Positions 5,461 to 31,576 of a stretch of 32,025 nt of DNA are shown piece by piece; the first letter of the stretch is position 1, and every line of letters starts with the position of its first letter. Below the pieces are notes generated by a model that was not told the DNA's origin, did no database searches, and saw only the letters and a list, made by a program, of their open reading frames with translations. Source of the stretch: a virus; the IMG/VR virus record IMGVR_UViG_3300027969_003822, positions 1 to 32,025 of that record, one strand, 5' to 3'. The translations under genes and the position numbers were made by a program.

Positions 5461-6987
5461 TTATAAGTTTAAAATTGAATTAGTGTAGCTTTGACGATAA
5501 AGCTCTGCTGCTGAATTTTTATTTCGTTTTACCCATTCTGTATATTCAGATTTACTCATTTTAATTTGTTCTTCTAACGTTAGGGGTTCTTGAAAATATT
5601 TAACCATTCGGTTTATCGTAATGAATCCAAATCCTCCGCCTATCTGTCTATCAACCGAATTGGCGGCTTTAGTTAATTCTTTTTCCAATGCTTCGGCTTC
5701 TGATATTTGCTTAACAGGGCTAGAGAAATTTTTCCACACTTTAGGTCGTGTAGGATCAGGCCAATAGTAACCATATTTTGAAGAGTTTAATTGAAATTCA
5801 CTTTTATATGGGCTGTAATCATATATTGGATTTCTAACTTGTAGAGCTGTAATCTGCACTGCATCAACTAAATTAGTGGGATCTAAGATCCATTGTTTAG
5901 TTTCTTCATAGGACTCATAAGTTTCATGTGGAAGTCCTGTTATTAAACTAATTAAAATTTTGATGTCTTTGCCCCATAATTCATTTTTCAGTTCTTTTAA
6001 AAGTTGCTTACATTTATCTCCGCCAAGACCTTTGCCAATAGTTCTAGCAGCTTTATCGTGAAACGACTCTACACCAAAATGGCATGCTCGTAGACCCATT
6101 TCTTTTAATAAAGAAATTTGCTCTCTATGATAATATAATAAATCAAGTCTAAGATAACAGGCAAAGTGAATCTTAAATGGCAATGAAGTAAACACTTTAT
6201 GTAGTTCTTTTATTTTTTCATTGCTATCATTAAACGTATCATCACTCAATACATATTGATCAATACCAAATTGCTCATAGTTATAGATTAACTCTTCTGT
6301 CAATACGTCATAGTGTTTGATGAAATCTAATTTTTTCTTACCGTTCAATGGATAAGCACAAAACTTACATTTAAAAATACAACCTCTACCCACTTCTATT
6401 ACCATTGGTTCTTTATGTTCCACACAATCTTCTCGTTGATAGATAATTTGAGAACGACAAAAATCAAACGTTTTGTCTGATACTGATACATCATAAATTA
6501 AAGTATTATTTTCTTTTTTTGTAGGTATAGGTATTGTAGTTTTATTCCGTATGGCTATCATGTAGTCTGTAAATTGTTTTTCACTATACCCTAAAAATAT
6601 AGCATCTACCTTAGGTACATGCTCTAATAAATTTAATCCATTAGGTCCGCCAAATATTATTTGCGTATCTTTATTTAAATTTTTAGTTTGATCAATAATT
6701 TTTAAAATTAAGTCGGCTATGCCACTTTTAGTATTTTGCCAAAATGTTGTGCTAAAAGCAACAGCTATAGTATCACTATCAACGAATTTGTTACATGCTT
6801 TCTCTAATTCATCTAGCGTAAATGAAGTAAACATACTTATTACTTGACAGGTGAATCCTGATTTCCTTACTTCTGTTGCCACACGGTAAGGACCAGCAGT
6901 TTTCATAGAACGGTTGTATTTTTTATGGTTTGGCCAAAATACCAAATCATCAGCAGCAGTATCAGCAAAAATTATAATATTAGACAT
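5461..6987 (-). CDS. B12-binding-type radical SAM enzyme
   Basis: 508 aa. CxxxCxxC at Cys203, Cys207 and Cys210 (GRGCIFKCKFC) is the [4Fe-4S]/SAM-binding motif. The preceding 150 residues (SNIIIFADTAADDL..., IIFGGPNG at about 110-116) have the alpha/beta look of a cobalamin-binding Rossmann domain, but I see no clear DxHxxG B12 ligand, so cobalamin use is doubtful. The SAM barrel continues with YVLSDDTFND and ACHFGVES motifs. The family includes methylthiotransferases, methyltransferases and cyclases; the substrate cannot be told. A TATAAGTA octamer on this strand ends five bases before the ATG, with no ribosome-binding site. Confidence 0.82.
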   Translation of the reverse strand: MSNIIIFADTAADDLVFWPNHKKYNRSMKTAGPYRVATEVRKSGFTCQVISMFTSFTLDELEKACNKFVDSDTIAVAFSTTFWQNTKSGIADLILKIIDQTKNLNKDTQIIFGGPNGLNLLEHVPKVDAIFLGYSEKQFTDYMIAIRNKTTIPIPTKKENNTLIYDVSVSDKTFDFCRSQIIYQREDCVEHKEPMVIEVGRGCIFKCKFCAYPLNGKKKLDFIKHYDVLTEELIYNYEQFGIDQYVLSDDTFNDSNEKIKELHKVFTSLPFKIHFACYLRLDLLYYHREQISLLKEMGLRACHFGVESFHDKAARTIGKGLGGDKCKQLLKELKNELWGKDIKILISLITGLPHETYESYEETKQWILDPTNLVDAVQITALQVRNPIYDYSPYKSEFQLNSSKYGYYWPDPTRPKVWKNFSSPVKQISEAEALEKELTKAANSVDRQIGGGFGFITINRMVKYFQEPLTLEEQIKMSKSEYTEWVKRNKNSAAELYRQSYTNSILNL

Positions 6988-11336: not shown

Positions 11337-11344
11337 TATAAATA
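11337..11344 (+). promoter_or_regulatory. Late-type promoter octamer TATAAATA
   Basis: Exact octamer one base after the phosphoesterase stop and exactly five bases before the ATG at 11350. Confidence 0.55.
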
Positions 11345-11349
11345 AAATT

Positions 11350-11970
11350 ATGATTATAACGTGCGGTCCCGTTGGCAATCAACGAACTTTTAACCTAATA
11401 CTTCCAGAAGAAAGAGCTAAAATAGCAGTCCTTATCAGTGGTGGCATAGACAGTGCTATACTGTATTACTTAATGTTGCAGGAAAACAAAAACACAGGAT
11501 ATAGGCATGATATACGACCTATATCTATTATGCGCCAAGAAGGATCTGAGTATTTTAGCAAACTAGTAGTGGCAAATATGAATGAGAAGTTTAACTTAAT
11601 CAAACAAGATGCTATTATAGTTGGAAATCCTTCTTTGCCAGAAGATCAGCAAGTTAAGTCAGGCGTAAATCATGCTTATAACTTAGGGTTTGATCTAACA
11701 TATTGCGGAGTAATTGAACAACAGCCTGAACACATGATAGGATGGGTTCAACCCGAGGCAAAAGAAACTAAAAGATTCAAAACACCGCTAAAAGAGCTAA
11801 ACAAAATACATATAATAGATCTTGTTATACAATGTAAACAAGAGGACTTATTTTACATTACTCATACTTGTAACAAGTTTAAAGTAGGCCGTTGTCACAA
11901 ATGTAATGGCTGTAATGAACGAGCATGGGGATTTTCACAATTAGGGTTACCAGATCCTGGCACTATATAA
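11350..11970 (+). CDS. queC: QueC-like PP-loop enzyme (preQ0 synthase family)
   Basis: 206 aa. The PP-loop SGGIDS (30-35) binds ATP. Four cysteines (Cys174, 182, 185, 188 in THTCNKFKVGRCHKCNGCNERAWGF) form the zinc site and the C-x2-C-x2-C-x2-R signature of QueC, which turns 7-carboxy-7-deazaguanine into preQ0 using ATP and ammonia. The N-terminal half is less typical, so a related amide- or nitrile-forming reaction is possible. Phages use preQ0 pathways to modify guanines in DNA against restriction, but no queD, queE, folE or dpdA homologue is in this window. The 3' end overlaps the convergent gene by eight bases. Confidence 0.72.
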   Translation: MIITCGPVGNQRTFNLILPEERAKIAVLISGGIDSAILYYLMLQENKNTGYRHDIRPISIMRQEGSEYFSKLVVANMNEKFNLIKQDAIIVGNPSLPEDQQVKSGVNHAYNLGFDLTYCGVIEQQPEHMIGWVQPEAKETKRFKTPLKELNKIHIIDLVIQCKQEDLFYITHTCNKFKVGRCHKCNGCNERAWGFSQLGLPDPGTI

Positions 11971-12508
11971 ACAAGTGCTGAAACTTAGCAACTGCGTCAT
12001 CCCACGTGATTGCTTTTGAATAACATCGTAAGCTAAACGCATATCTGCCATTAAATCCTGATGGACGATGAGGTATTTCCGCATTAGTTAAATACGCACC
12101 TGGTAAAGTCGTATAGATTTTAAAGGGATTTTTTTTAGCTACGCAAACTATACGACTACTACCTATCGTATCACCCTCTTCCTTCATCTCATCTACATCT
12201 TCCGGGCGCCAGTATTCCATGACGCCATATCCATTATAAATCCAGTTAATGCCCCATACTCTGCGACCATCAACATGTATGACTCCTGTGTGATTATTTT
12301 TATAAAAGAAATTAACAAAATCCCATTCGATGCCCGACCAATTCAACCACTCTGGTTTAACTAATCCTTTAGGATGATATTGTTTATACAGTGGTTTTTC
12401 ATTACCTACTAATAATTCCGTCTTGCCTTCATCTGAAAGTATTTCATCTAATGGTGGTAAATCTAACTTATACATGTACTCTGGACTTATTGCCATGGCA
12501 TTTTCCAT
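11963..12508 (-). CDS. 2OG-Fe(II) oxygenase-like protein D
   Basis: 181 aa. The iron-binding triad of the double-stranded beta-helix fold is readable: HxD at His78-Val-Asp80 (GVIHVDGRRVWGINWIY), distal His147 (NAEIPHRPSGFNGR) and a basic residue near 155-161 for 2-oxoglutarate. Substrate unknown. It is last of a five-gene minus-strand operon, and its ATG lies inside the end of the SGNH hydrolase gene (22-base overlap). An in-frame ATG at 12496 is an alternative start. Confidence 0.65.
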   Translation of the reverse strand: MENAMAISPEYMYKLDLPPLDEILSDEGKTELLVGNEKPLYKQYHPKGLVKPEWLNWSGIEWDFVNFFYKNNHTGVIHVDGRRVWGINWIYNGYGVMEYWRPEDVDEMKEEGDTIGSSRIVCVAKKNPFKIYTTLPGAYLTNAEIPHRPSGFNGRYAFSLRCYSKAITWDDAVAKFQHLFI

Positions 12509-13263
12509 TTAGTAGGAGGAACGGCAGGAATAAACTTAACTGGGGTAAAATCCCATTCATCTATATTACTAAGATAATTTATAATTTCATATTTTGACTC
12601 TATAATTATTTTAGCAATTCCCTCTGCTAACTTTATATTATTGTGTTCACTAAAATGATTACTTCTTGAATCTGGACCGAAATGACCCTGAGATGGATCT
12701 CCTTCGTGAGGAATTAGTTCTTTTTGCGATGCTTTAAACAACGATGTTAGCTTGTTAGAAATTTGTATAGAACATGAATTATGTGTAGGCACATGATCGT
12801 AATCATCGAAACAGTTTATATGAACTAACTTATAAAAATTATCCGACATGACATTCAGCTCATTTATCCATGAAGCTTTTGCCCATTTGTAAAATTCAGG
12901 TACATACAAATCAGATTGATAAAAATCTTTTACTAGGATATGTAATTTACCACTTGGATCAAGATGTTTTATGTCTGACTTATCTGAATTAACTTCTGCT
13001 CTTATTAAGCCTGGATTAATAGGAAAATCTAAAATAGAAGGCAATCTACTAAAATTTGTATGACATACTATAACTAAAGTTTGTTTATCAAGAATAGACT
13101 TATTTTCAAGTAGCCATCTTCGTGTAGTCCACCATGGTCTGCCACCATATCCTACCCCATGTAATGGCACATCTAATTTATTTGCCAGAAATACAGGCCA
13201 ATCAGTAGATTGATATCTCTCTGAACAAAAACTATCTCCGACTACAACTAATTTATCAAACAT
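12487..13263 (-). CDS. SGNH/GDSL-type hydrolase
   Basis: 258 aa. Block I GDSFCSE (residues 9-15) holds the nucleophile Ser. GYGGRPWW (about 39-46) fits the Gly block, CHTNFSR (about 67-73) the Asn block, and PDSRSNHFSEHN near 200 carries a D-x4-H arrangement for the catalytic Asp/His. SGNH enzymes deacylate lipids, glycans or other esters; the substrate here is not evident. Starts three bases after the stop of the upstream oxygenase-like gene and lies within an otherwise oxygenase-rich operon, which suggests work on the same molecule. Confidence 0.72.
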   Translation of the reverse strand: MFDKLVVVGDSFCSERYQSTDWPVFLANKLDVPLHGVGYGGRPWWTTRRWLLENKSILDKQTLVIVCHTNFSRLPSILDFPINPGLIRAEVNSDKSDIKHLDPSGKLHILVKDFYQSDLYVPEFYKWAKASWINELNVMSDNFYKLVHINCFDDYDHVPTHNSCSIQISNKLTSLFKASQKELIPHEGDPSQGHFGPDSRSNHFSEHNNIKLAEGIAKIIIESKYEIINYLSNIDEWDFTPVKFIPAVPPTKWKMPWQ

Positions 13264-13266
13264 ATT

Positions 13267-13836
13267 CTATTGCTTAATGTAATTTTTAAAAATTTCATAT
13301 ACATTGTCAAAAGTTGGGCGGCCGTTTTGATCTCTATATCCAAAAATTATACTAACACAAAATCTTTCAGTAAGATTGTTATTATTGATACTATGTGGTA
13401 TTCCTACTTGTACCAAAGTAGGTTGCCCAACTTGTTGACTATGTAATAGAGTGACATCATCTTTCGCATAATGTATAGCGTAAGTTGAAATGGAAGTTTT
13501 TTGAGAAGCACCTTGGCAATTTTCTTTTATAGCATACCAACACATTGTACTTCCTTCTCCGCCAAATACCCAATTTAGTTTAACATAATCACCTGGTTCT
13601 TGTGTGTCTATGTGTATATAACTATTTACACCGGCTGGTCTATAAAAAACTTCAACAAAATTAATAGTTAATCTGTGATCTGCAAAAAATTTAACAACAT
13701 CATCACTTAAAAGTTCATTGCTAATTTTATAATGTCTTGCTGATGTTGGGTTGTTTAGTTTTAAAAATTCAATAGGATCCAATGTAGATTTAAACAATGA
13801 AATTGGTAACTCAAGATCAGCACAATATTTTGTCAT
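13267..13836 (-). CDS. 2OG-Fe(II) oxygenase-like protein C
   Basis: 189 aa from the ATG at 13836, which lies one base after the upstream stop; a longer frame to 13875 would overlap the upstream gene and is less likely. Triad His75-Ile-Asp77 (SYIHIDTQEPGDYVKLNW), His148 (VGIPHSINNN), Arg158. A GGEGSTMCWY stretch between them fits the beta-helix core. Second paralogue-like neighbour of proteins A and B in the same operon; overall identity among them looks low. Confidence 0.68.
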   Translation of the reverse strand: MTKYCADLELPISLFKSTLDPIEFLKLNNPTSARHYKISNELLSDDVVKFFADHRLTINFVEVFYRPAGVNSYIHIDTQEPGDYVKLNWVFGGEGSTMCWYAIKENCQGASQKTSISTYAIHYAKDDVTLLHSQQVGQPTLVQVGIPHSINNNNLTERFCVSIIFGYRDQNGRPTFDNVYEIFKNYIKQ

Positions 13837-13837
13837 A

Positions 13838-14374
13838 TTAGTCAAACAGATGTTCAAGGTTTTCATAAAATCCAATTGTACATGCTATACGTGGTTGAAT
13901 TTCATTATAGCTAACAACTTGGTGTGGTTGATCATTTCTAAATACTACAGGTTTAGTAAGTTCAAATTTATCTACTTGAGTACATGCTGCTGGATTTAAT
14001 TTCAATAATGATATACCATTTTTTTGTAATACTTTAACTGGTTCTTCACTCATAGTAAAAAATCTAGTTTCACTTTTATCACAGTTTAATACAGGAATGT
14101 TTATCCTAGCAGTAGATTGTTTATCACTATCAATATGTATAGTCCCATATGGCGTATCTGTAATAAAAAAAGCAAGATATTTTATAGTAATATTCAAAGG
14201 CTTAACCATCTCTATAAGTTCAGGTACTTTATCTAATACATCTCGTGTATTTACAGACTTCCACGCAGAATTTTTTTGCAACTCTAATATTGATTCTGAA
14301 TTTTCATATACATATTGTGCTAGTTTGGCACTAGCTTTAGAACAGTCTATATCTAAATATTTGTAATATTTCAT
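13838..14374 (-). CDS. 2OG-Fe(II) oxygenase-like protein B
   Basis: 178 aa. Triad His80-Ile-Asp82 (GTIHIDSDKQSTARINIPV), His151 (RNDQPHQVV), Arg162 (QPRIACTIGFY). The spacing matches protein C. Its start overlaps the stop of protein A (ATGA), showing translational coupling. Confidence 0.68.
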   Translation of the reverse strand: MKYYKYLDIDCSKASAKLAQYVYENSESILELQKNSAWKSVNTRDVLDKVPELIEMVKPLNITIKYLAFFITDTPYGTIHIDSDKQSTARINIPVLNCDKSETRFFTMSEEPVKVLQKNGISLLKLNPAACTQVDKFELTKPVVFRNDQPHQVVSYNEIQPRIACTIGFYENLEHLFD

Positions 14375-14940
14375 AATTTTATAGGAAAAGGAATCACATT
14401 AGTTGAAAATTTCTCCCAGCTCCATGGTAATATTCTAATACTAAGAGCTATTTCTGAAGTATCGCTTTCATTTCTAAGAGCGTGCCAAGTGCCAATATCA
14501 GTTATCATAGTTCTATTAGCTGAAACAGTTTCTATTTCTTTAGCAGCACTATATGGCATCATGGGTATGGCTTGTTGCCACATGCCTTTTTCAACATGGT
14601 AGATTATCTGCGAAGGATCAATACATTCAAACCAGGACCAATGCAATTTTTCACAACTAGTCAATGGCAAAAATATAGCTTTTTCTGATTTGCCGAGATC
14701 TTTGGTTTCAACTGGTTTATCTGAGTGTATCCACAATTTTTTACCAGGTGGCATATACACTAACATTATCTTATAATCAGACCCTGGTGCTAACTCAATA
14801 TTCAATAACTTAATTATTGTTTCTTTAGTAGCTTTATTTACAGCCTGTACTTTTTCAATATTAACGTCGGATATCGTAATAATGTCCAAAATTTGTGATA
14901 CAGCAATGGTTGGCCAAAATATTGGTTTATAATGATTCAT
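14371..14940 (-). CDS. 2OG-Fe(II) oxygenase-like protein A
   Basis: 189 aa. Triad His72-Ser-Asp74 (KLWIHSDKPVETK), His153 (GTWHALRNES), Arg169. First gene of the minus-strand operon; the ATG at 14940 lies four bases after AATAAATA on this strand and is divergent from protein E. A longer frame reaching 15231 is rejected because it would run through the oppositely transcribed oxygenase gene. Confidence 0.68.
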   Translation of the reverse strand: MNHYKPIFWPTIAVSQILDIITISDVNIEKVQAVNKATKETIIKLLNIELAPGSDYKIMLVYMPPGKKLWIHSDKPVETKDLGKSEKAIFLPLTSCEKLHWSWFECIDPSQIIYHVEKGMWQQAIPMMPYSAAKEIETVSANRTMITDIGTWHALRNESDTSEIALSIRILPWSWEKFSTNVIPFPIKL

Positions 14941-14944
14941 GTGG

Positions 14945-14952
14945 TATTTATT
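14945..14952 (-). promoter_or_regulatory. Late-type promoter octamer AATAAATA
   Basis: Minus-strand AATAAATA ending four bases before the ATG at 14940, back-to-back with the plus-strand octamer at 14971. Confidence 0.45.
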
Positions 14953-14970
14953 GAGCCTAAAAATTACAAG

Positions 14971-14978
14971 TATAAATA
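14971..14978 (+). promoter_or_regulatory. Late-type promoter octamer TATAAATA
   Basis: Exact octamer 20 bases upstream of the ATG at 14999; AAGGTAGA in between could serve as ribosome-binding site. Confidence 0.5.
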
Positions 14979-14998
14979 TTTTATCAAGGTAGAATTCA

Positions 14999-15610
14999 AT
15001 GGATAACATAATGTTTGCCGAAGTAAATTTTCCATTACTAGACAAATCCACAGCAACAAAAGAAATCTTAGCTATTCCTGAAAAATTTAGTTTTTGGGAC
15101 GAATATCGCAATACACTAATGATACCCTTAATGAGCAAAGGTGGAATGTCAGCATCTAACAGCATTCCCGGTGAGTTTAAATGGAATGACCATGCACCTA
15201 AAATTATTGTTGATTGGTTTGATGAATACATATTTCCGTGGATGGGAACAAAAGCCAGAGTTATGGCGTTGATTACACAGCCAAATTTTTCAAACTACGA
15301 ACACATAGATTGTGATCCACATGAGCTAAACACTAGGCAACATAAATTTAGAATTGTATTACAAGGCAAAACTGACACACTTTACTTTATAACTGATAAA
15401 GAAAATATATCTGCTCCTGATATCGAAGGCGCATTTATCATGGATGGCGGCTGGCCGCATGGCATGGTAAATAATGCTAATGAAGTTAAAGTTACATTAG
15501 CATTAGGTGCTCCTTGGACTGGCAATGATAGTTACGACAATATCAATTTACTTCTAGATCGTTCTATTCATACTATGCCAGAAGATCTTAGAGCATATTG
15601 GAAAAAATGA
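14999..15610 (+). CDS. 2OG-Fe(II)/Asp-Asn hydroxylase-like protein E
   Basis: 203 aa. His102-Ile-Asp104 (NYEHIDCDPHEL) and His154 (GGWPHGMVNN), then Lys164, give the HxD...H...K/R order. The run LYFITDKENISAPDIEGAFIMDGGWPH resembles aspartyl/asparaginyl beta-hydroxylase-type proteins. Whether it acts on protein, lipid or a small molecule is unknown. It heads the plus-strand operon that ends in the PP-loop ATPase; the next gene overlaps its stop (ATGA). An alternative in-frame ATG lies at 15011. Confidence 0.7.
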   Translation: MDNIMFAEVNFPLLDKSTATKEILAIPEKFSFWDEYRNTLMIPLMSKGGMSASNSIPGEFKWNDHAPKIIVDWFDEYIFPWMGTKARVMALITQPNFSNYEHIDCDPHELNTRQHKFRIVLQGKTDTLYFITDKENISAPDIEGAFIMDGGWPHGMVNNANEVKVTLALGAPWTGNDSYDNINLLLDRSIHTMPEDLRAYWKK

Positions 15611-16248
15611 GTAATTTTTATCACAAAACAGAATTTAAGTTTAGTAATGCAGCAATAACTTGGATACTTAGTAGATACCAACACCGATATAACGATATCT
15701 TTTTTCATGATCTAGACATTACTCAAAGTGATTCTAAAAGTCAAGCAGAATGGCAAGCAAGTTTACCAGGAAGAGAATTAAGATCATTTTTGTTGAAATA
15801 TAATTGTGATACTAGCTATTACGGCATAAATGTATTTCTTAGCAACACAAAAGAGTTAGTCAGAGGTAATCCGCATATTGATGCAAAGTTTAGTAGCGGT
15901 GATATTTTTAAAATTAAATCTAGATTCAATGTAATGGTGTTGGGCAATCCTGAAGACAGTATGGTTTGGTGGGATACAATGAAATGGGGCGATGAAAGAT
16001 TAATTGATCATCCATTTACCACTATCACAGGAAAGTCCTATGTTAGTAAAGCTATTCCAGGCGCTACACCCGATGAACGATGGGAATTTCTAGGTAAACC
16101 ATCTGAAGAAGTTACAAATCTATTAACACCTAGTGCTTTTGTACGCACTGATTGTGCCCATACAATATATACAAGTGGGCAACCTAGGTTAATAGTCACA
16201 GTAGCATTAGACAAAACATTAGACGAAATAATAATCAAGCAATGTTAG
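15607..16248 (+). CDS. 2OG-Fe(II) oxygenase-like protein F
   Basis: 213 aa from the ATG overlapping the previous stop. His90-Ile-Asp92 (NPHIDAKFSSG), His185 (RTDCAHTIYTSG), Arg194 (QPRLIVTVAL). It is followed 30 bases later by the PP-loop ATPase, which has its own late-type octamer. Confidence 0.68.
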   Translation: MSNFYHKTEFKFSNAAITWILSRYQHRYNDIFFHDLDITQSDSKSQAEWQASLPGRELRSFLLKYNCDTSYYGINVFLSNTKELVRGNPHIDAKFSSGDIFKIKSRFNVMVLGNPEDSMVWWDTMKWGDERLIDHPFTTITGKSYVSKAIPGATPDERWEFLGKPSEEVTNLLTPSAFVRTDCAHTIYTSGQPRLIVTVALDKTLDEIIIKQC

Positions 16249-16278: not shown

Positions 16279-17241
16279 ATGCCACAGTTTACACACAAAA
16301 ATCATTTGAAATTCGGATGGGGTGATGGAGTTTACAATTTTAATGACAAAGATCAAAAATTCTGGACTGAACCAGGACAAGTAGAATATATACCTACTTC
16401 ATTCAAAGATGAATGTCTTAGGGCAGCTAGATTAATAGGCAACGCTGCCAACAAACCAATATTAGTCGGAATGTCTGGTGGAGTAGATTCTGAAGTAACA
16501 GCAAGATCATTCTTAGAAACTGGGATTCAATTTGAAGCGGTATACGCAAATATAATACATAATGGAGTAATCGCAAATGAGCATGACGTTATGTATGCCA
16601 GATCATTTATTAAAAAATACAATATTAAATATCACGAAGTTAACATTGAATTTAATGATTTAGTTAATAAATTTAAACAAATACGAGAAACAAATAATCC
16701 AGCCGAACCATATTATAAAGTAAATATTTCATATCTATTTAATGTAATGATGTTCAAAACATTTTGTCATGAGTATTTTTGTGTCAGGGGTGGTGGTGAT
16801 TTGTCAATTGAAACACATAGACGATACAACCAAGAAGAACCAATTCAATACGGAGTATATGTAGGTGAATCCCCAACAACATCTACCATCGCAGTGTATG
16901 AAATGGCATATCGTGAATCTGTTAATACTGCTAACTTTTTTTGTTATACTCCTGAAGCTTGGTTAGCATGGTTATTGGATCCAGATGTAAGATATTGGAT
17001 CAAATATGAAAAAGCATTAATGGGTCCGCATGGTTGGATGAATCACTATGCGCTAAAAGCATTTGTATTATATAAAATTTGGCCAGAGATGGAAATTAGA
17101 CCAAAACTTACTGGATTTGAGAATATACCAGAATTTAAGGAATTATTTTTTGATGAATTTTATATTAATACTAGTTTACGCAATGACATGTCAGTCGATG
17201 AATTTACAAAATTGTTATTGAAAGGCAATACATGGGATTAA
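16279..17241 (+). CDS. PP-loop ATPase (asparagine synthase/adenine nucleotide alpha hydrolase type), copy 1
   Basis: 320 aa. SGGVDS (66-71) after a hydrophobic strand (PILVGM) is the PP-loop that adenylates a carbonyl or carboxyl group before attack by ammonia or sulphur. There is no glutaminase domain and no QueC-type Cys cluster, so the nucleophile donor is unknown. The N-terminus FTHKNHL and the later FFCYTPEAWLAWLLDPDVR match copy 2 at 29539 (FTHNNHL; WFSYTPELLLYWLENPLVK), so the two are paralogues. Both sit beside HxD-type oxygenase genes. Confidence 0.75.
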   Translation: MPQFTHKNHLKFGWGDGVYNFNDKDQKFWTEPGQVEYIPTSFKDECLRAARLIGNAANKPILVGMSGGVDSEVTARSFLETGIQFEAVYANIIHNGVIANEHDVMYARSFIKKYNIKYHEVNIEFNDLVNKFKQIRETNNPAEPYYKVNISYLFNVMMFKTFCHEYFCVRGGGDLSIETHRRYNQEEPIQYGVYVGESPTTSTIAVYEMAYRESVNTANFFCYTPEAWLAWLLDPDVRYWIKYEKALMGPHGWMNHYALKAFVLYKIWPEMEIRPKLTGFENIPEFKELFFDEFYINTSLRNDMSVDEFTKLLLKGNTWD

Positions 17242-20275: not shown

Positions 20276-20303
20276 AAAAGGAGCTTAGGCTCCTTTTGTT
20301 TTA
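20276..20303. terminator. Bidirectional terminator
   Basis: AAAAGGAGC (20276-20284) pairs with GCTCCTTTT (20289-20297), loop TTAG, then GTTTT. A-runs on the other side serve the minus-strand HNH gene, whose last codons lie within the hairpin. Confidence 0.8.
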
Positions 20304-21076
20304 TCCATTAGCTCGTCAAGTGTTTGATCGCATCGGATATGTTTTGACTTATTATCTACATGCCACATTAACCTTAAATTAGCTATGTGTGCGATAATTG
20401 TTGGATCAACGTTATTTTCAAATCCTACCCGCATACTATATATATGATCTATCTGATACTGGCATATCCCGATTGGCAAATCATTTGGATTTATAATATT
20501 TTTAAATTTTTTATAATTTATAGCAGTTAGTTTACGACATTGAAACTTGTAAAGATTCCATTCTGTTTTTTTAGAAGGATCTATCCAACGACCATTCGCT
20601 ATTTCTGTATCTTTTTTCTTTTTTACTATAGAACTCCAATCATCTCCATATTTTTCTCTTTTAGTAATAACTGATTGAGCAGTTATACTGGGATCAGCTG
20701 CGTGGGCAGCTCTCATTCCAGCTGCTGCTTTATTTCGTATCTCTTCATTTTGTGTAGGTTCTTCAACACCATATTTTTCTAACATAGTTTTTTTACGCTT
20801 AGCTTTAACTTCTAAATTCATTAAACTAACAGTATGGCCATATTTTTCTATATTAGTTGCGTTTCGCTTATCACTAATTTCCTTAGTTTGCCATGGATAT
20901 TCGGTACCATATTTTGATAAACTTGATAATACTTTTTTGTCTTTAACTGCTTGGCAAGAATTAGCACTTTTAGAACATTGGTGTACTGGAGCACCCTTAA
21001 ATGTACCTGATTTTAGACTTCCCTTGGTGATATGAGTTGCTGGGTTTCCGCAACCGTATTGGCATAATATTTTCAT
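20285..21076 (-). CDS. HNH homing endonuclease with KYG repeats
   Basis: 263 aa from the ATG at 21076. An N-terminal Cys motif (CQYGCGN...C) is followed by about four repeats built on (E)KYG-x-(E)(D/Y)P...(residues about 55-150), a modular DNA-binding design of phage endonucleases. The C-terminal HNH module has YQIDHIYSMRVGFENNV...ANLRLMWHVDNKSK (about 206-247). CATAAATA lies five bases before the ATG. An in-frame start 33 bases upstream is less likely. The gene is inserted against the grain between the MoxR and FkbM genes. Confidence 0.82.
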   Translation of the reverse strand: MKILCQYGCGNPATHITKGSLKSGTFKGAPVHQCSKSANSCQAVKDKKVLSSLSKYGTEYPWQTKEISDKRNATNIEKYGHTVSLMNLEVKAKRKKTMLEKYGVEEPTQNEEIRNKAAAGMRAAHAADPSITAQSVITKREKYGDDWSSIVKKKKDTEIANGRWIDPSKKTEWNLYKFQCRKLTAINYKKFKNIINPNDLPIGICQYQIDHIYSMRVGFENNVDPTIIAHIANLRLMWHVDNKSKHIRCDQTLDELMDKTKGA

Positions 21077-21081
21077 ACAAT

Positions 21082-21089
21082 TATTTATG
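21082..21089 (-). promoter_or_regulatory. Late-type promoter octamer CATAAATA
   Basis: Minus-strand CATAAATA ends five bases (ATTGT) before the ATG at 21076, the same geometry as at 595, 2334 and 9685. Confidence 0.5.
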
Positions 21090-21117
21090 CGTAATAAAAA
21101 ATATCGCAAATAAATAC

Positions 21118-28727: not shown

Positions 28728-29558
28728 ATGCCTAAAATAAATTCATTCTTGCACTACATACTCTATCCAATACATACTATAGCATGGATAGGTACAATAT
28801 TATTTCTTACATTTTTTGATTTTACATGGACCAATTTTTGGCAATTGCTAATTGGCTGGATCATAATAGAAGGGCTTGGCGTTGCGGTAGTACTACATAG
28901 ATATGTTAGTCACAAAGCAGTTGAAATAAGGCCTGGATTAAAACCAATATTACTCTGGATTAGTTGCTTATCCCTACAAGGTAGTCCGCTCGGCTGGGCA
29001 GCAGTACATAGAGGTAGTCATCACCGACACAGCGACACGGAAAAAGATGCCCACACGCCCTCCAAGGGCCGGTGGTATGCTTGGCACATGTGGTTACATG
29101 ATTGGGACAAATACTTTAATCCTAAGTACGCAATAGATTTGGTCAGAGATCCCATGCACGTATGGATAGCCAAGAATTATAACTATATTATTCTTGTGAC
29201 TTATGTTATAGTAGGTTTAATTAGTTGGGAACTGTTGCTATTTGGTTTCATTGTGCCAGCTGCATTGAGTTTGTATATGGAAAGCAATATTAATGTATTC
29301 TGCCATACTAAAAATATGGGTTATAGGAATTTTGAAACTAAGGACAATAGCCAGAATGTTTCATTGCTAGCATGGATAACATGGGGGCAAGGTTGGCACA
29401 ACAACCATCATGAAAAAGCAAGTAGCTATGATTTCGGATCCAGCGTAAGTGGTAAATCAAGTGAGTGGGATTTTAGTTTAATCTTTCTACCATTGATTGC
29501 GACTAAAGAAAGCAGACAGAAAATTTGGCAAGAGCGCAATGACAAACTTCACACATAA
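28728..29558 (+). CDS. Acyl-lipid/acyl-CoA desaturase (membrane fatty acid desaturase)
   Basis: 276 aa. The three His boxes of the stearoyl-CoA/delta-9-type family are present: HRYVSH (57-62), HRGSHHRHSD (94-103) and HNNHH (224-228, in GQGWHNNHH), plus an extra His in NVFCHT. Hydrophobic segments at about 10-30, 38-56, 72-92, 150-185 fit a four-helix membrane enzyme. It would place a double bond in host acyl chains using a di-iron centre and O2, changing membrane fluidity or making a lipid signal. The last 20 bases overlap the PP-loop gene. Confidence 0.88.
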   Translation: MPKINSFLHYILYPIHTIAWIGTILFLTFFDFTWTNFWQLLIGWIIIEGLGVAVVLHRYVSHKAVEIRPGLKPILLWISCLSLQGSPLGWAAVHRGSHHRHSDTEKDAHTPSKGRWYAWHMWLHDWDKYFNPKYAIDLVRDPMHVWIAKNYNYIILVTYVIVGLISWELLLFGFIVPAALSLYMESNINVFCHTKNMGYRNFETKDNSQNVSLLAWITWGQGWHNNHHEKASSYDFGSSVSGKSSEWDFSLIFLPLIATKESRQKIWQERNDKLHT

Positions 29559-30456
29559 TAATCATCTTGTATATAGCATAGGCGGGCGTAACTATGACTA
29601 TAGAACAAACTCAACAGAAAAGTATTCAGTAAGAGTTGGAGCAATAGACCCAGAACGATATGCTGCTAGTTCATATGCTGAAGAATTACATCGTACTGCT
29701 CAATTAGTAAGAAATGATTTTGGCAAGGATCTTGTATTATTTTTATCGGGTGGCACAGACAGTGAAATAGTACTAAGAAATTTCGTAGCAACGGGATTCA
29801 AACCACACTGTGTTACTCTTAGATTCAAAAATGACTACAATGCCAGTGATTTAGTTGAAGCGCAAGCAATAGCTGATGAGTTGGGTGTTAATCTAGATAT
29901 TATTGATATAGATATTGAGGATTTTTACTATTCAGGCGAAGCTAAAGAGTTTGGTGAGCAAATACAATGTACTCAGATAACTTATATTATGGTTTACAGA
30001 AGTGTATTAAAACTAGGTGCTCCAGCAGTCATGGGTGGAGAAGCATTACTTACTAGACAAGTAAATCTTAATGATAGTTATTGGTATTATACACTTAGAG
30101 AAAATGAAGATGCTAGTGCTATGCGGTTCTCCGATAAATTTGGAGTGCCATTGGTAAATGAATGGTTTAGTTATACGCCTGAGTTGCTATTATATTGGTT
30201 AGAAAATCCTTTAGTAAAAGAACTTGTGTCTAATCGTTACAACTACAAGCTAAACTCTGCCAGCAGTAAAAACTCAATTTTATCTACTCTGTATAAAACT
30301 AGACCTAAATCAAAAACACATGGATTTGAAAGGTTACTAGACTTTAATCAAGAAGTGTACAGAGAATTAGGAAGAACACAAATCAAAAGGCTAGAAGCCA
30401 ATGTAGATGGCATACATTATGATACAGTAATACAGCAATTAAAAGGATTGGCATGA
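29539..30456 (+). CDS. PP-loop ATPase, copy 2
   Basis: 305 aa from the ATG at 29539, inside the end of the desaturase gene; a frame opening at 29497 would overlap more and adds only basic filler. SGGTDS (70-75) is the PP-loop after LVLFL. FTHNNHL at the N-terminus and WFSYTPELLLYWLENPLVKEL late in the protein match copy 1 at 16279. No Cys cluster or glutaminase. Followed by ATGA coupling to a GNAT-like gene and then an HxD-type oxygenase. Confidence 0.75.
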   Translation: MTNFTHNNHLVYSIGGRNYDYRTNSTEKYSVRVGAIDPERYAASSYAEELHRTAQLVRNDFGKDLVLFLSGGTDSEIVLRNFVATGFKPHCVTLRFKNDYNASDLVEAQAIADELGVNLDIIDIDIEDFYYSGEAKEFGEQIQCTQITYIMVYRSVLKLGAPAVMGGEALLTRQVNLNDSYWYYTLRENEDASAMRFSDKFGVPLVNEWFSYTPELLLYWLENPLVKELVSNRYNYKLNSASSKNSILSTLYKTRPKSKTHGFERLLDFNQEVYRELGRTQIKRLEANVDGIHYDTVIQQLKGLA

Positions 30457-30971
30457 AAATCGTAGAATTAAATTTATTATACAGAGAACTTATTAAACCT
30501 TTGTTTACAGTTGATGTGTTATATCAACGATTTATTGACACTTATCTATCAGGGTTAACTAGTTACAAGGCATTCGGTATAGAACAAAAAGATGGCAGCA
30601 TAACTTCTTTTGTATCATTTTATATGAGTCGTGATGACGCATGTTGGTACATCACTGATATAAAATCAAATGACACAAAAGATGAACTTTACACATTGAT
30701 AAGTTCTGCAATGGCATACAATGAAAGCATGGGTAGATTAAAGTTTTATTCCCTAATTGATGCAGATGATATTGGGTTGGTAGATATAGTGTTTAATCTA
30801 AGATACAAATATGTAGATGAATGTATTGTTCCTGCAAAAACAAGATGCTTATACAATAATTATTGGCAAATACTATACAATCGCATGTTACCAGAAAGAG
30901 ATACAGTAGTGCGTTGTTCATTCCTAAAACAAAAGCACAGAAGATTACTACCAATTGGAGGCAATATATGA
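30453..30971 (+). CDS. GNAT-like protein of unknown substrate
   Basis: 172 aa. AFGIEQKDGSITSFVSFYMS (about 40-59) and WYITDIKSN with following helices resemble the central GNAT sheet; a clear acetyl-CoA loop is not visible. ATGA overlap at both ends places it firmly in the PP-loop/oxygenase operon. It may load or cap the molecule that the PP-loop enzyme activates, but that is inference. Confidence 0.5.
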   Translation: MKIVELNLLYRELIKPLFTVDVLYQRFIDTYLSGLTSYKAFGIEQKDGSITSFVSFYMSRDDACWYITDIKSNDTKDELYTLISSAMAYNESMGRLKFYSLIDADDIGLVDIVFNLRYKYVDECIVPAKTRCLYNNYWQILYNRMLPERDTVVRCSFLKQKHRRLLPIGGNI

Positions 30972-31576
30972 ACAGCTTAGTTAGTCCGTTCAAACTATTT
31001 GTCGGTGATCTAAACTATTTCAGAATAGGAGAAAACAAAGAATTAGGTGAAGAACTAAGAACTTATTTTTCTGATACTATCAACAGTGACTTATGGAAAC
31101 TAGTTACAAATAGACAGAGATTAACACATGCACTACGATTTACCGAAACTATACATTTATATGCGTTAAAAGATCTCCCAGATGGTTCAGATACTACACA
31201 AGCTAATCAATGGATGGATATACAACCGCTGGAACAAGCCGATATTGATGTTTTTAAAAAAGCTATAACTTGGTTCGAAAAAATTCTATTAACCACCGGA
31301 GCAGAACATGTTGAATTTGGTAGAATTTTTATCAGCAAATTAGCAGCTAAATCCACTATTGACACGCATACTGATAGCGGAAAATATTTTAGTTACTATG
31401 ACAGATTTCATTTTACTGTTACTGCTGCTGAAGAAAACATCTTTGTAATTAGGAATGAAGAATGTACTTTAGAAAACGATTCATTATTCTGGGTTAATAA
31501 TCATGTGCCGCACTGGTTAGAAAATCGCAGCAATGAGGACAGAATAAACTTTATCATAGATGCAAGGTTATCATGA
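30968..31576 (+). CDS. 2OG-Fe(II)/Asp-Asn hydroxylase-like protein G
   Basis: 202 aa from the ATG overlapping the previous stop. His134-Thr-Asp136 (IDTHTDSGKYFSYYDR), His182 (NNHVPHWLEN) and Arg192 form the HxD...H...R triad. SYYDRFHFTVTAAEENIFVIRN between them resembles aspartyl/asparaginyl beta-hydroxylase folds. Seventh compact protein of this type in the window. Confidence 0.7.
   Translation: MNSLVSPFKLFVGDLNYFRIGENKELGEELRTYFSDTINSDLWKLVTNRQRLTHALRFTETIHLYALKDLPDGSDTTQANQWMDIQPLEQADIDVFKKAITWFEKILLTTGAEHVEFGRIFISKLAAKSTIDTHTDSGKYFSYYDRFHFTVTAAEENIFVIRNEECTLENDSLFWVNNHVPHWLENRSNEDRINFIIDARLS

Follow-up and report, generated by a model that had tools for sequence, protein, structure and literature searches.

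A phage locus of compact, predicted Fe(II)/2-oxoglutarate oxygenases whose gene content is reshuffled among related viruses

Six compact open reading frames (ORFs), here called A to F, fill positions 11963-16248 of the viral record IMGVR_UViG_3300027969_003822, which was analysed over its whole length of 32,025 bases (the window). They form two divergent units, one in which four oxygenase-like genes accompany an SGNH-hydrolase-like gene, and one in which two accompany a PP-loop ATPase gene. On the minus strand, A, the SGNH-like gene, B, C and D follow one another with overlaps or short gaps, while E, F and the PP-loop gene lie on the plus strand. A sequence-only reading of the window had described these ORFs, their divergent arrangement and their two partner genes, and all were found at the positions it gave. 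We placed the start of B at the ATG at 13863 (the TTG start in the ORF list is 13875) and that of D at 14937, the equivalent start in relatives; the listed 286-residue ORF for D extends back into E. The features are as follows.

11963-12508, minus strand: A, predicted Fe(II)/2-oxoglutarate (2OG) oxygenase, HVD...H...R, 181 residues; profile relative of B (A-B 87.8%), with H, D, H and R invariant.
12487-13263, minus strand: SGNH-hydrolase-like gene between A and B, 258 residues; GDS block invariant in five homologues.
13267-13863, minus strand: B, predicted Fe(II)/2OG oxygenase, 198 residues; AlphaFold model and structural neighbours.
13838-14374, minus strand: C, predicted Fe(II)/2OG oxygenase (H80, D82, H151, R162), 178 residues; alignment A2 and profile link to B.
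14371-14937, minus strand: D, predicted Fe(II)/2OG oxygenase with a displaced basic residue (H71, D73, H152, R168), 188 residues; alignment A3 and leave-out profile.
14938-14998, no strand assigned: putative divergent promoter region with T4-late-type octamers (AATAAATA and TATAAATA), their placement kept in relatives.
14999-15610, plus strand: E, probable oxygenase-fold protein, a candidate (H102, D104, H154, K164), 203 residues; these residues invariant in alignments A4 and A7.
15598-16248, plus strand: F, predicted Fe(II)/2OG oxygenase (H93, D95, H188, R197), 216 residues; alignment A1, A6 profile and leave-out profile.
16279-17241, plus strand: PP-loop ATPase after F, 320 residues; conserved SGGxDS and Pfam matches over the cut-off.

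All six proteins contain an H-x-D motif, a distal His and a later basic residue. In a single protein this pattern is weak evidence, because a shuffled copy of any one of them passes the loose form of the motif 6-20% of the time. In alignment A6, which was built around A, B and C and contains no D, E or F (44 rows, 17% mean column identity), H84, D86, H157 and R167 in B numbering are the sole invariant columns. Matching H, D and H and a basic residue are likewise invariant in the family alignments of C, D, E and F. The basic residue is Arg in A, B, C and F and Lys in E, in each case at the usual place after the distal His. Identity between B and members of the other subfamilies is 14-24%, which bears out the low mutual resemblance of A to F noted earlier.

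Profile searches connect most of these proteins. Profile comparison unites A and B with C and with three subfamilies of the related loci, C2, G and H (C2, G, H, I, J and K are labels coined in this analysis). Iterative jackhmmer searches of 288 ORFs, with the database size set to Z=100000, collected 61 ORFs from A, 70 from B, 54 from C, 63 from D, seven from E and nine from F, and only the search from B took in all six types. None of 3168 reversed or shuffled decoys scored below 1e-3, the best reaching 0.13 in the E search. To avoid circularity, whole groups were then omitted from the model: a model built without D, E and F found 8 of 8 D proteins at 1.2e-12 to 2e-5, and one built without E and F found 9 of 9 F proteins at 2.6e-5 to 8.5e-4. 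The A6 profile matches the F of the window at 3.4e-8. Because of these leave-out outcomes, D and F are, by profile evidence, members of one family with A, B and C.

This family is unnamed in Pfam, PHROGs and NCBIfam. Scans of the three libraries with A to F reached no named family, and the matches obtained lay below curated cut-offs (B to DUF960 at 0.0052 and D to Cupin_2 at 0.11, among others). A to F had no tblastn match at E <= 1 in an annotated phage collection, and the A/B/G/H, C, E and all-family profiles found no meaningful sequence match in the PDB. Kinship with Asp/Asn beta-hydroxylases or phytanoyl-CoA hydroxylases, which the sequence-only reading had raised, found no support in the library scans. 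PF05118 (Asp/Asn beta-hydroxylase) gave no Pfam match to A to F at E <= 1, and one of the 44 relatives matched it at 0.017; PF05721 (phytanoyl-CoA dioxygenase) gave no Pfam match to A to F; and PF13640 and similar profiles (the 2OG-FeII_Oxy domains of cyanophages) matched neither A to F nor any of the 44 relatives. True PF05118 and PF05721 members are present in sister loci.

The fold was assessed by modelling. With alignment A6 as input, AlphaFold predicted B as a double-stranded beta-helix (predicted local distance difference test, pLDDT, 91.0; predicted template modelling score, pTM, 0.86). In the model, the HxD lies at strand 83-85, the distal His opens strand 157-160 and the Arg opens strand 167-176; this order of HxD strand, His strand and Arg strand is usual for the 2OG oxygenase superfamily. 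A VIA structural alignment of B, which took a second look at 1000 Foldseek-ranked chains, listed 50 entries, and all 50 are 2OG oxygenases with Z scores of 8.8 to 9.7. They include proline 3-hydroxylase (1e5r; Z 9.7, root-mean-square deviation (rmsd) 3.6, 143 residues aligned), ALKBH6 (Z 9.7, rmsd 4.3, 149 aligned) and PHD2 (Z 9.4, rmsd 3.9, 143 aligned). Differences in Z of less than 1 are ties, so no substrate class or subfamily follows for B. The viral models nearest to B are uncharacterised proteins of uncultured phages, the best being A0A6J5TBF2 (36% identity, TM 0.85), and near-sequential accessions among them suggest two phage genomes with several copies each.

Some observations weigh against assigning all six proteins to this class. 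In D of the window, Glu occupies the usual Arg column (Glu or Ala among relatives), and R168, 16 residues past the distal His, is the basic residue that does not vary. This displacement is the one correction to the earlier description of the motif. E proteins score 0.046-35 with a model built without E (Z=100000; best shuffle 3.0), which is not significant; others with the beta-helix, I and J for example, score at least as well. The AlphaFold model of E (pLDDT 40.9) is unusable for fold or structure search. The leave-out result does not place E in the family, and we regard it as probably a member on its conserved motif. A bacterial genome scan with the C family found no relative. Foldseek matched B to PDB entries at modest scores (E about 1e-4; TM 0.27-0.44 by query), among them, at similar E-values, non-oxygenase cupins such as RmlC, a sugar isomerase and seed storage proteins; a beta-helix is thus not proof of oxygenase activity by itself. 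Such matches would be expected if A to F were cupin-like binding proteins or isomerases that use the beta-helix without oxidation; the invariant H, D, H and R in 44 relatives and the exclusively 2OG-oxygenase VIA list argue otherwise, and we consider that explanation highly improbable. Overall, fold and enzyme class are supported, the beta-helix by the model of B and, for A, C, D and F, by profile kinship with B. The beta-helix proposed in the sequence-only reading is therefore supported for these five and is a candidate fold for E.

Phylogenetic analysis places the subfamilies in separate clades with long stems. Clade support is 100/100 for A, D and F, 93/99 for B, and 98/96 for C together with C2 and kin from other contigs. 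By this analysis the five subfamilies A, B, C, D and F are ancient and distinct, and recent tandem duplication was rejected as the origin of the cluster. Ratios of nonsynonymous to synonymous substitution rates (dN/dS) for A to F against the related loci L002, L003 and L008 are 0.04-0.34 (0.11-0.13 for A against L002 and L003), and the genes are therefore maintained by purifying selection. Comparisons with L005, among them a value of 0.63 for B, were set aside, since for most genes dS could not be defined or had reached saturation. Compared with L002, A, B and D are 76-86% identical, against 99% for the MoxR-type gene and 97% for the carbamoyltransferase; A, B and D thus diverge faster than neighbouring genes.

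Nine viral contigs with the same gene neighbourhood came from a scan with E, and scans with C, D and F added more. Ortholog mapping gave, for each locus, the fold-alike genes that lie from the QueC-like gene (or another flanking gene) up to the MoxR-type ATPase gene, with E counted on motif and position. The gene orders are as follows.

Window: A B C D E F
L002: A B D E F
L003: A B D I E F G
L004: H PhyH C2 J A C2 B C D E F G K
L006 (near-copies L005 and L007): A C2 B C D E F G K
L008: B C D I E F
L009: D E F K
L041: one unassigned member, then B D F K K

No two of these eight distinct loci are alike. Each packs 4 to 13 fold-alike genes that fall into clean orthologous groups, and sister phages lack single members. 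D and F occur in all eight and E in seven (it is absent from L041), whereas A is absent from L008, L009 and L041, and C from L002, L003, L009 and L041. The SGNH-like gene is absent from L004-L007, L009 and L041. Two incomplete loci, L010 and L015, were not counted, nor were L045, which has F without the rest of the locus, and other contigs from the C scan in which C-type genes have different neighbours. PF05118 is matched by I and J, and PF05721 by the PhyH gene (L004:2251-3180; 27.3 bits, cut-off 22). On the two longest related contigs, hits of the A6 profile, which misses E and most F proteins, are concentrated: on the 177-kb contig 4 of 4 lie at 73-77 kb, and on the 133-kb contig 7 of 8 lie at 92-99 kb, with one at 111.6 kb.

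Oxygenase-like genes also occur in other settings. Two other viral contigs carry three tandem C-type genes (L023:2598-4684 and L026:2100-4216) beside a gene that we take to be ribonucleotide-reductase-like. A further phage contig (L017:1-9020) has several ORFs with the loose oxygenase motif together with a PP-loop gene and desaturase-, hydrolase- and acetyltransferase-like genes, the last three recognised by eye.

The reshuffled content bears on what the enzymes do together. The sequence-only reading had offered two possibilities, successive oxidations of one molecule or a family of diversified effectors, and the second fits better. Under the first, A to F with the SGNH-like and PP-loop enzymes would form a pathway for one phage-made compound, as the tight overlapping operons and the tailoring-type enzymes nearby (PP-loop genes, carbamoyltransferase, fatty acid desaturase) might suggest. 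Yet A, C, E and the SGNH-like gene are each missing from some loci while the remaining genes persist, and a strict chain of oxidations is disfavoured because it should break down where a sister phage lacks A, C or E; we hold this pathway to be unlikely. Separate substrates are favoured over a fixed oxidation chain because the content is reshuffled, the subfamilies are old and the remaining members are under purifying selection.

We consider it fairly probable, then, that A, B, C, D and F are Fe(II)/2OG oxygenases of one compact phage family, E probably among them, and that they act as separately useful tailoring enzymes, not as an assembly line; their catalysis and separate substrates are what we infer from the evidence above. 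In each enzyme, the H-x-D...H residues would hold Fe(II) inside the beta-helix, and a basic residue of the final core strand would bind 2OG; O2 would serve to hydroxylate a substrate particular to that enzyme, or to oxidise it in some other way. D and F would form the core of the set, with E in most loci, and other members would be gained, lost and swapped together with helper genes (SGNH-like, PP-loop, sulfotransferase-like and nitroreductase).

The region between D and E contains TATAAATA at 14971-14978 on the plus strand and AATAAATA, with one mismatch, at 14945-14952 on the minus strand, so that the two face outwards. T4 late promoters use the octamer TATAAATA, placed at a set distance ahead of genes and read by the phage's late sigma factor. 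The back-to-back late-type octamers reported earlier are real, and relatives too carry them ahead of D and of E or, where another gene has been inserted between these two, ahead of that gene. The pair or a close variant is found in L002, L004 and L008 (in L008, gene I sits between the two) and the octamer in L005, while L009 shows only a CTAAATA-type variant. As a window-wide signal the octamer is not enriched (5 found against 5.75 expected), and it is informative by its placement only. Across the eight loci, 8 of 159 ORFs, with orthologous genes counted separately, have it in the preceding 45 nt, against about 0.6 expected from its overall frequency; six permuted octamers gave 0 to 6 such ORFs, and the permutation scoring 6 overlaps TATAAATA itself. 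For 6 of these 8 ORFs the octamer starts exactly 13 nt ahead of the start codon, among them ORFs of the window (11337-11350 and 582-595), L004, L006 and L008. With this spacing, transcripts would have almost no leader if TATAAATA works as T4 late promoters do. By analogy with T4, the divergent octamers suggest late expression during infection.

The partner genes vary between loci. SGNH hydrolases have blocks I (GDS), II (G), III (N) and V (DxxH). Beyond its GDS block, the SGNH-like gene has a conserved Gly and a conserved His, but the block III Asn is His in L003 and block V reads E-H, so that it is a candidate member only. It had no match in Pfam, PHROGs, NCBIfam or the PDB. It is present in the window, L002, L003, L008 and L015, and a scan with it returned only contigs already in hand, so that it appears restricted to the loci of this phage group. 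The PP-loop gene after F keeps its SGGxDS loop in six homologues and matches the Pfam families NAD_synthase (27.7 bits, cut-off 21) and tRNA_Me_trans (26.7 bits, cut-off 20.6). A sulfotransferase-like gene occurs in L004, L005-L007, L009 and L041 (its Stf0 match reaches only 0.0074), and a nitroreductase gene in L004, with a similar gene recognised by eye in L041. Within the island of L002, a PP-loop gene is followed by a TctC-like gene (L002:10362-11249), whose product resembles tripartite-tricarboxylate receptors and with which a scan of the genome collection gave no relative.

These varying partners suit tailoring of virion, surface or small molecules. From the late timing and the accompanying helpers, virion or cell-surface molecules are our tentative first guess at the targets. 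A more elaborate version, which we regard as doubtful, is a combinatorial modification island, in which each lineage's assortment of old, substrate-specific oxygenases and group-transfer enzymes would write a different chemical pattern on one target class (the virion surface or the host envelope), late in infection and under selection for variety.

Nucleic acids are another conceivable target, with the enzymes hydroxylating bases of DNA or tRNA. A QueC-like PP-loop gene with a C-x7-C-x2-C-x2-C cluster lies at 11350-11970 and is kept beside the island in most relatives, further PP-loop genes and 19 tRNA genes (within 1-21109) are nearby, and AlkB-type structures are among the closest folds listed for B. 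The window ORFs scanned include no other queuosine gene and no 7-deazaguanine partner, however, and the AlkB likeness is at the level of fold, common to amino-acid and protein hydroxylases. We judge base modification improbable.

Other genes of the window include homing-endonuclease-type genes at 1642-2358 and 20285-21109, a radical SAM gene at 5461-6987 and, from the scan of window ORFs, the carbamoyltransferase gene. A second plastic stretch (28728-31576) consists of a fatty acid desaturase gene, a PP-loop gene, a small ORF and a PF05118 hydroxylase gene (30863-31576). PP-loop and PF05118 matches also lie within ~2.5 kb of each other in the genome records G001, G004, G006, G007 and G013, and PP-loop ATPase genes are expanded in G004 (5 matches) and G013 (7).

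The make-up of these loci has practical consequences. What such enzymes do becomes testable: the compact proteins lend themselves to substrate screens, and sister phages that lack single members offer natural comparisons. The family alignment with its four invariant residues can also help to annotate 'uncharacterized' phage proteins.

Among known systems, cyanophages offer the closest parallel. Cyanophage S-SCSM1 is described as having 24 2OG oxygenase genes, so that such an expansion in a phage is already published (PMC9602691), and Sullivan and colleagues give up to five per cyanophage in the rows shown and proposed a role in nitrogen status (PMC3037559). Applied here, that proposal would have A to F mainly draw down 2OG and so alter host 2OG and nitrogen signalling. 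It leaves unexplained why purifying selection keeps A, B, C, D and F apart as long-established subfamilies. Coupled 2OG oxygenases, moreover, need a prime substrate, and we hold drawdown as the main function to be very unlikely. As in S-SCSM1-type sets, many small, mutually divergent 2OG oxygenases are found in one phage; unlike them, A to F match none of the Pfam domains given in that description (13640, 13661, 13759 and 05721; PMC9602691), and A6 hits in the related contigs lie mostly in one place.

Likeness to characterised enzymes lies in the fold. L-proline 3-hydroxylase type II (1e5r), the top structural match of B, has a motif of the same H-x-D...H...R type, but it is larger (260 residues) and only 15% identical. 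AlkB/ALKBH proteins and PHD2 share the fold (Z 8.8-9.7) at 8-13% identity, with ties within 1 Z that single out no subfamily. PF05118 proteins have the Fe(II)/2OG fold and occur in sister loci L003 and L004 and once elsewhere in the window, yet A to F do not match that family. Similarly, phrog_274 ('DNA endonuclease V' of cyanophages) is matched by subfamily K of the sister loci, with E down to 5e-6, but not by A to F, and the whole-family model misses both Syn19 proteins. These denV-annotated proteins themselves show H-x-D...H...R (L050:2501-3046 and L050:1547-2044, from Synechococcus phage Syn19, and L022:13118-13696); the L022 protein is matched by 219 phage records and itself matches 2OG-FeII_Oxy_3 at 0.0012, below the cut-off. 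The denV annotation looks wrong, and from their motif these cyanophage proteins are probably 2OG oxygenases.

A search of the open-licence PMC literature, including a text search of the Kavagutti freshwater-phage paper (PMC6802176), found no matching published phage locus. The cluster is a variant of the known cyanophage phenomenon, with another family, in other phages and in one concentrated locus; it is this unnamed family, concentrated in a single reshuffling locus, that appears to be new.

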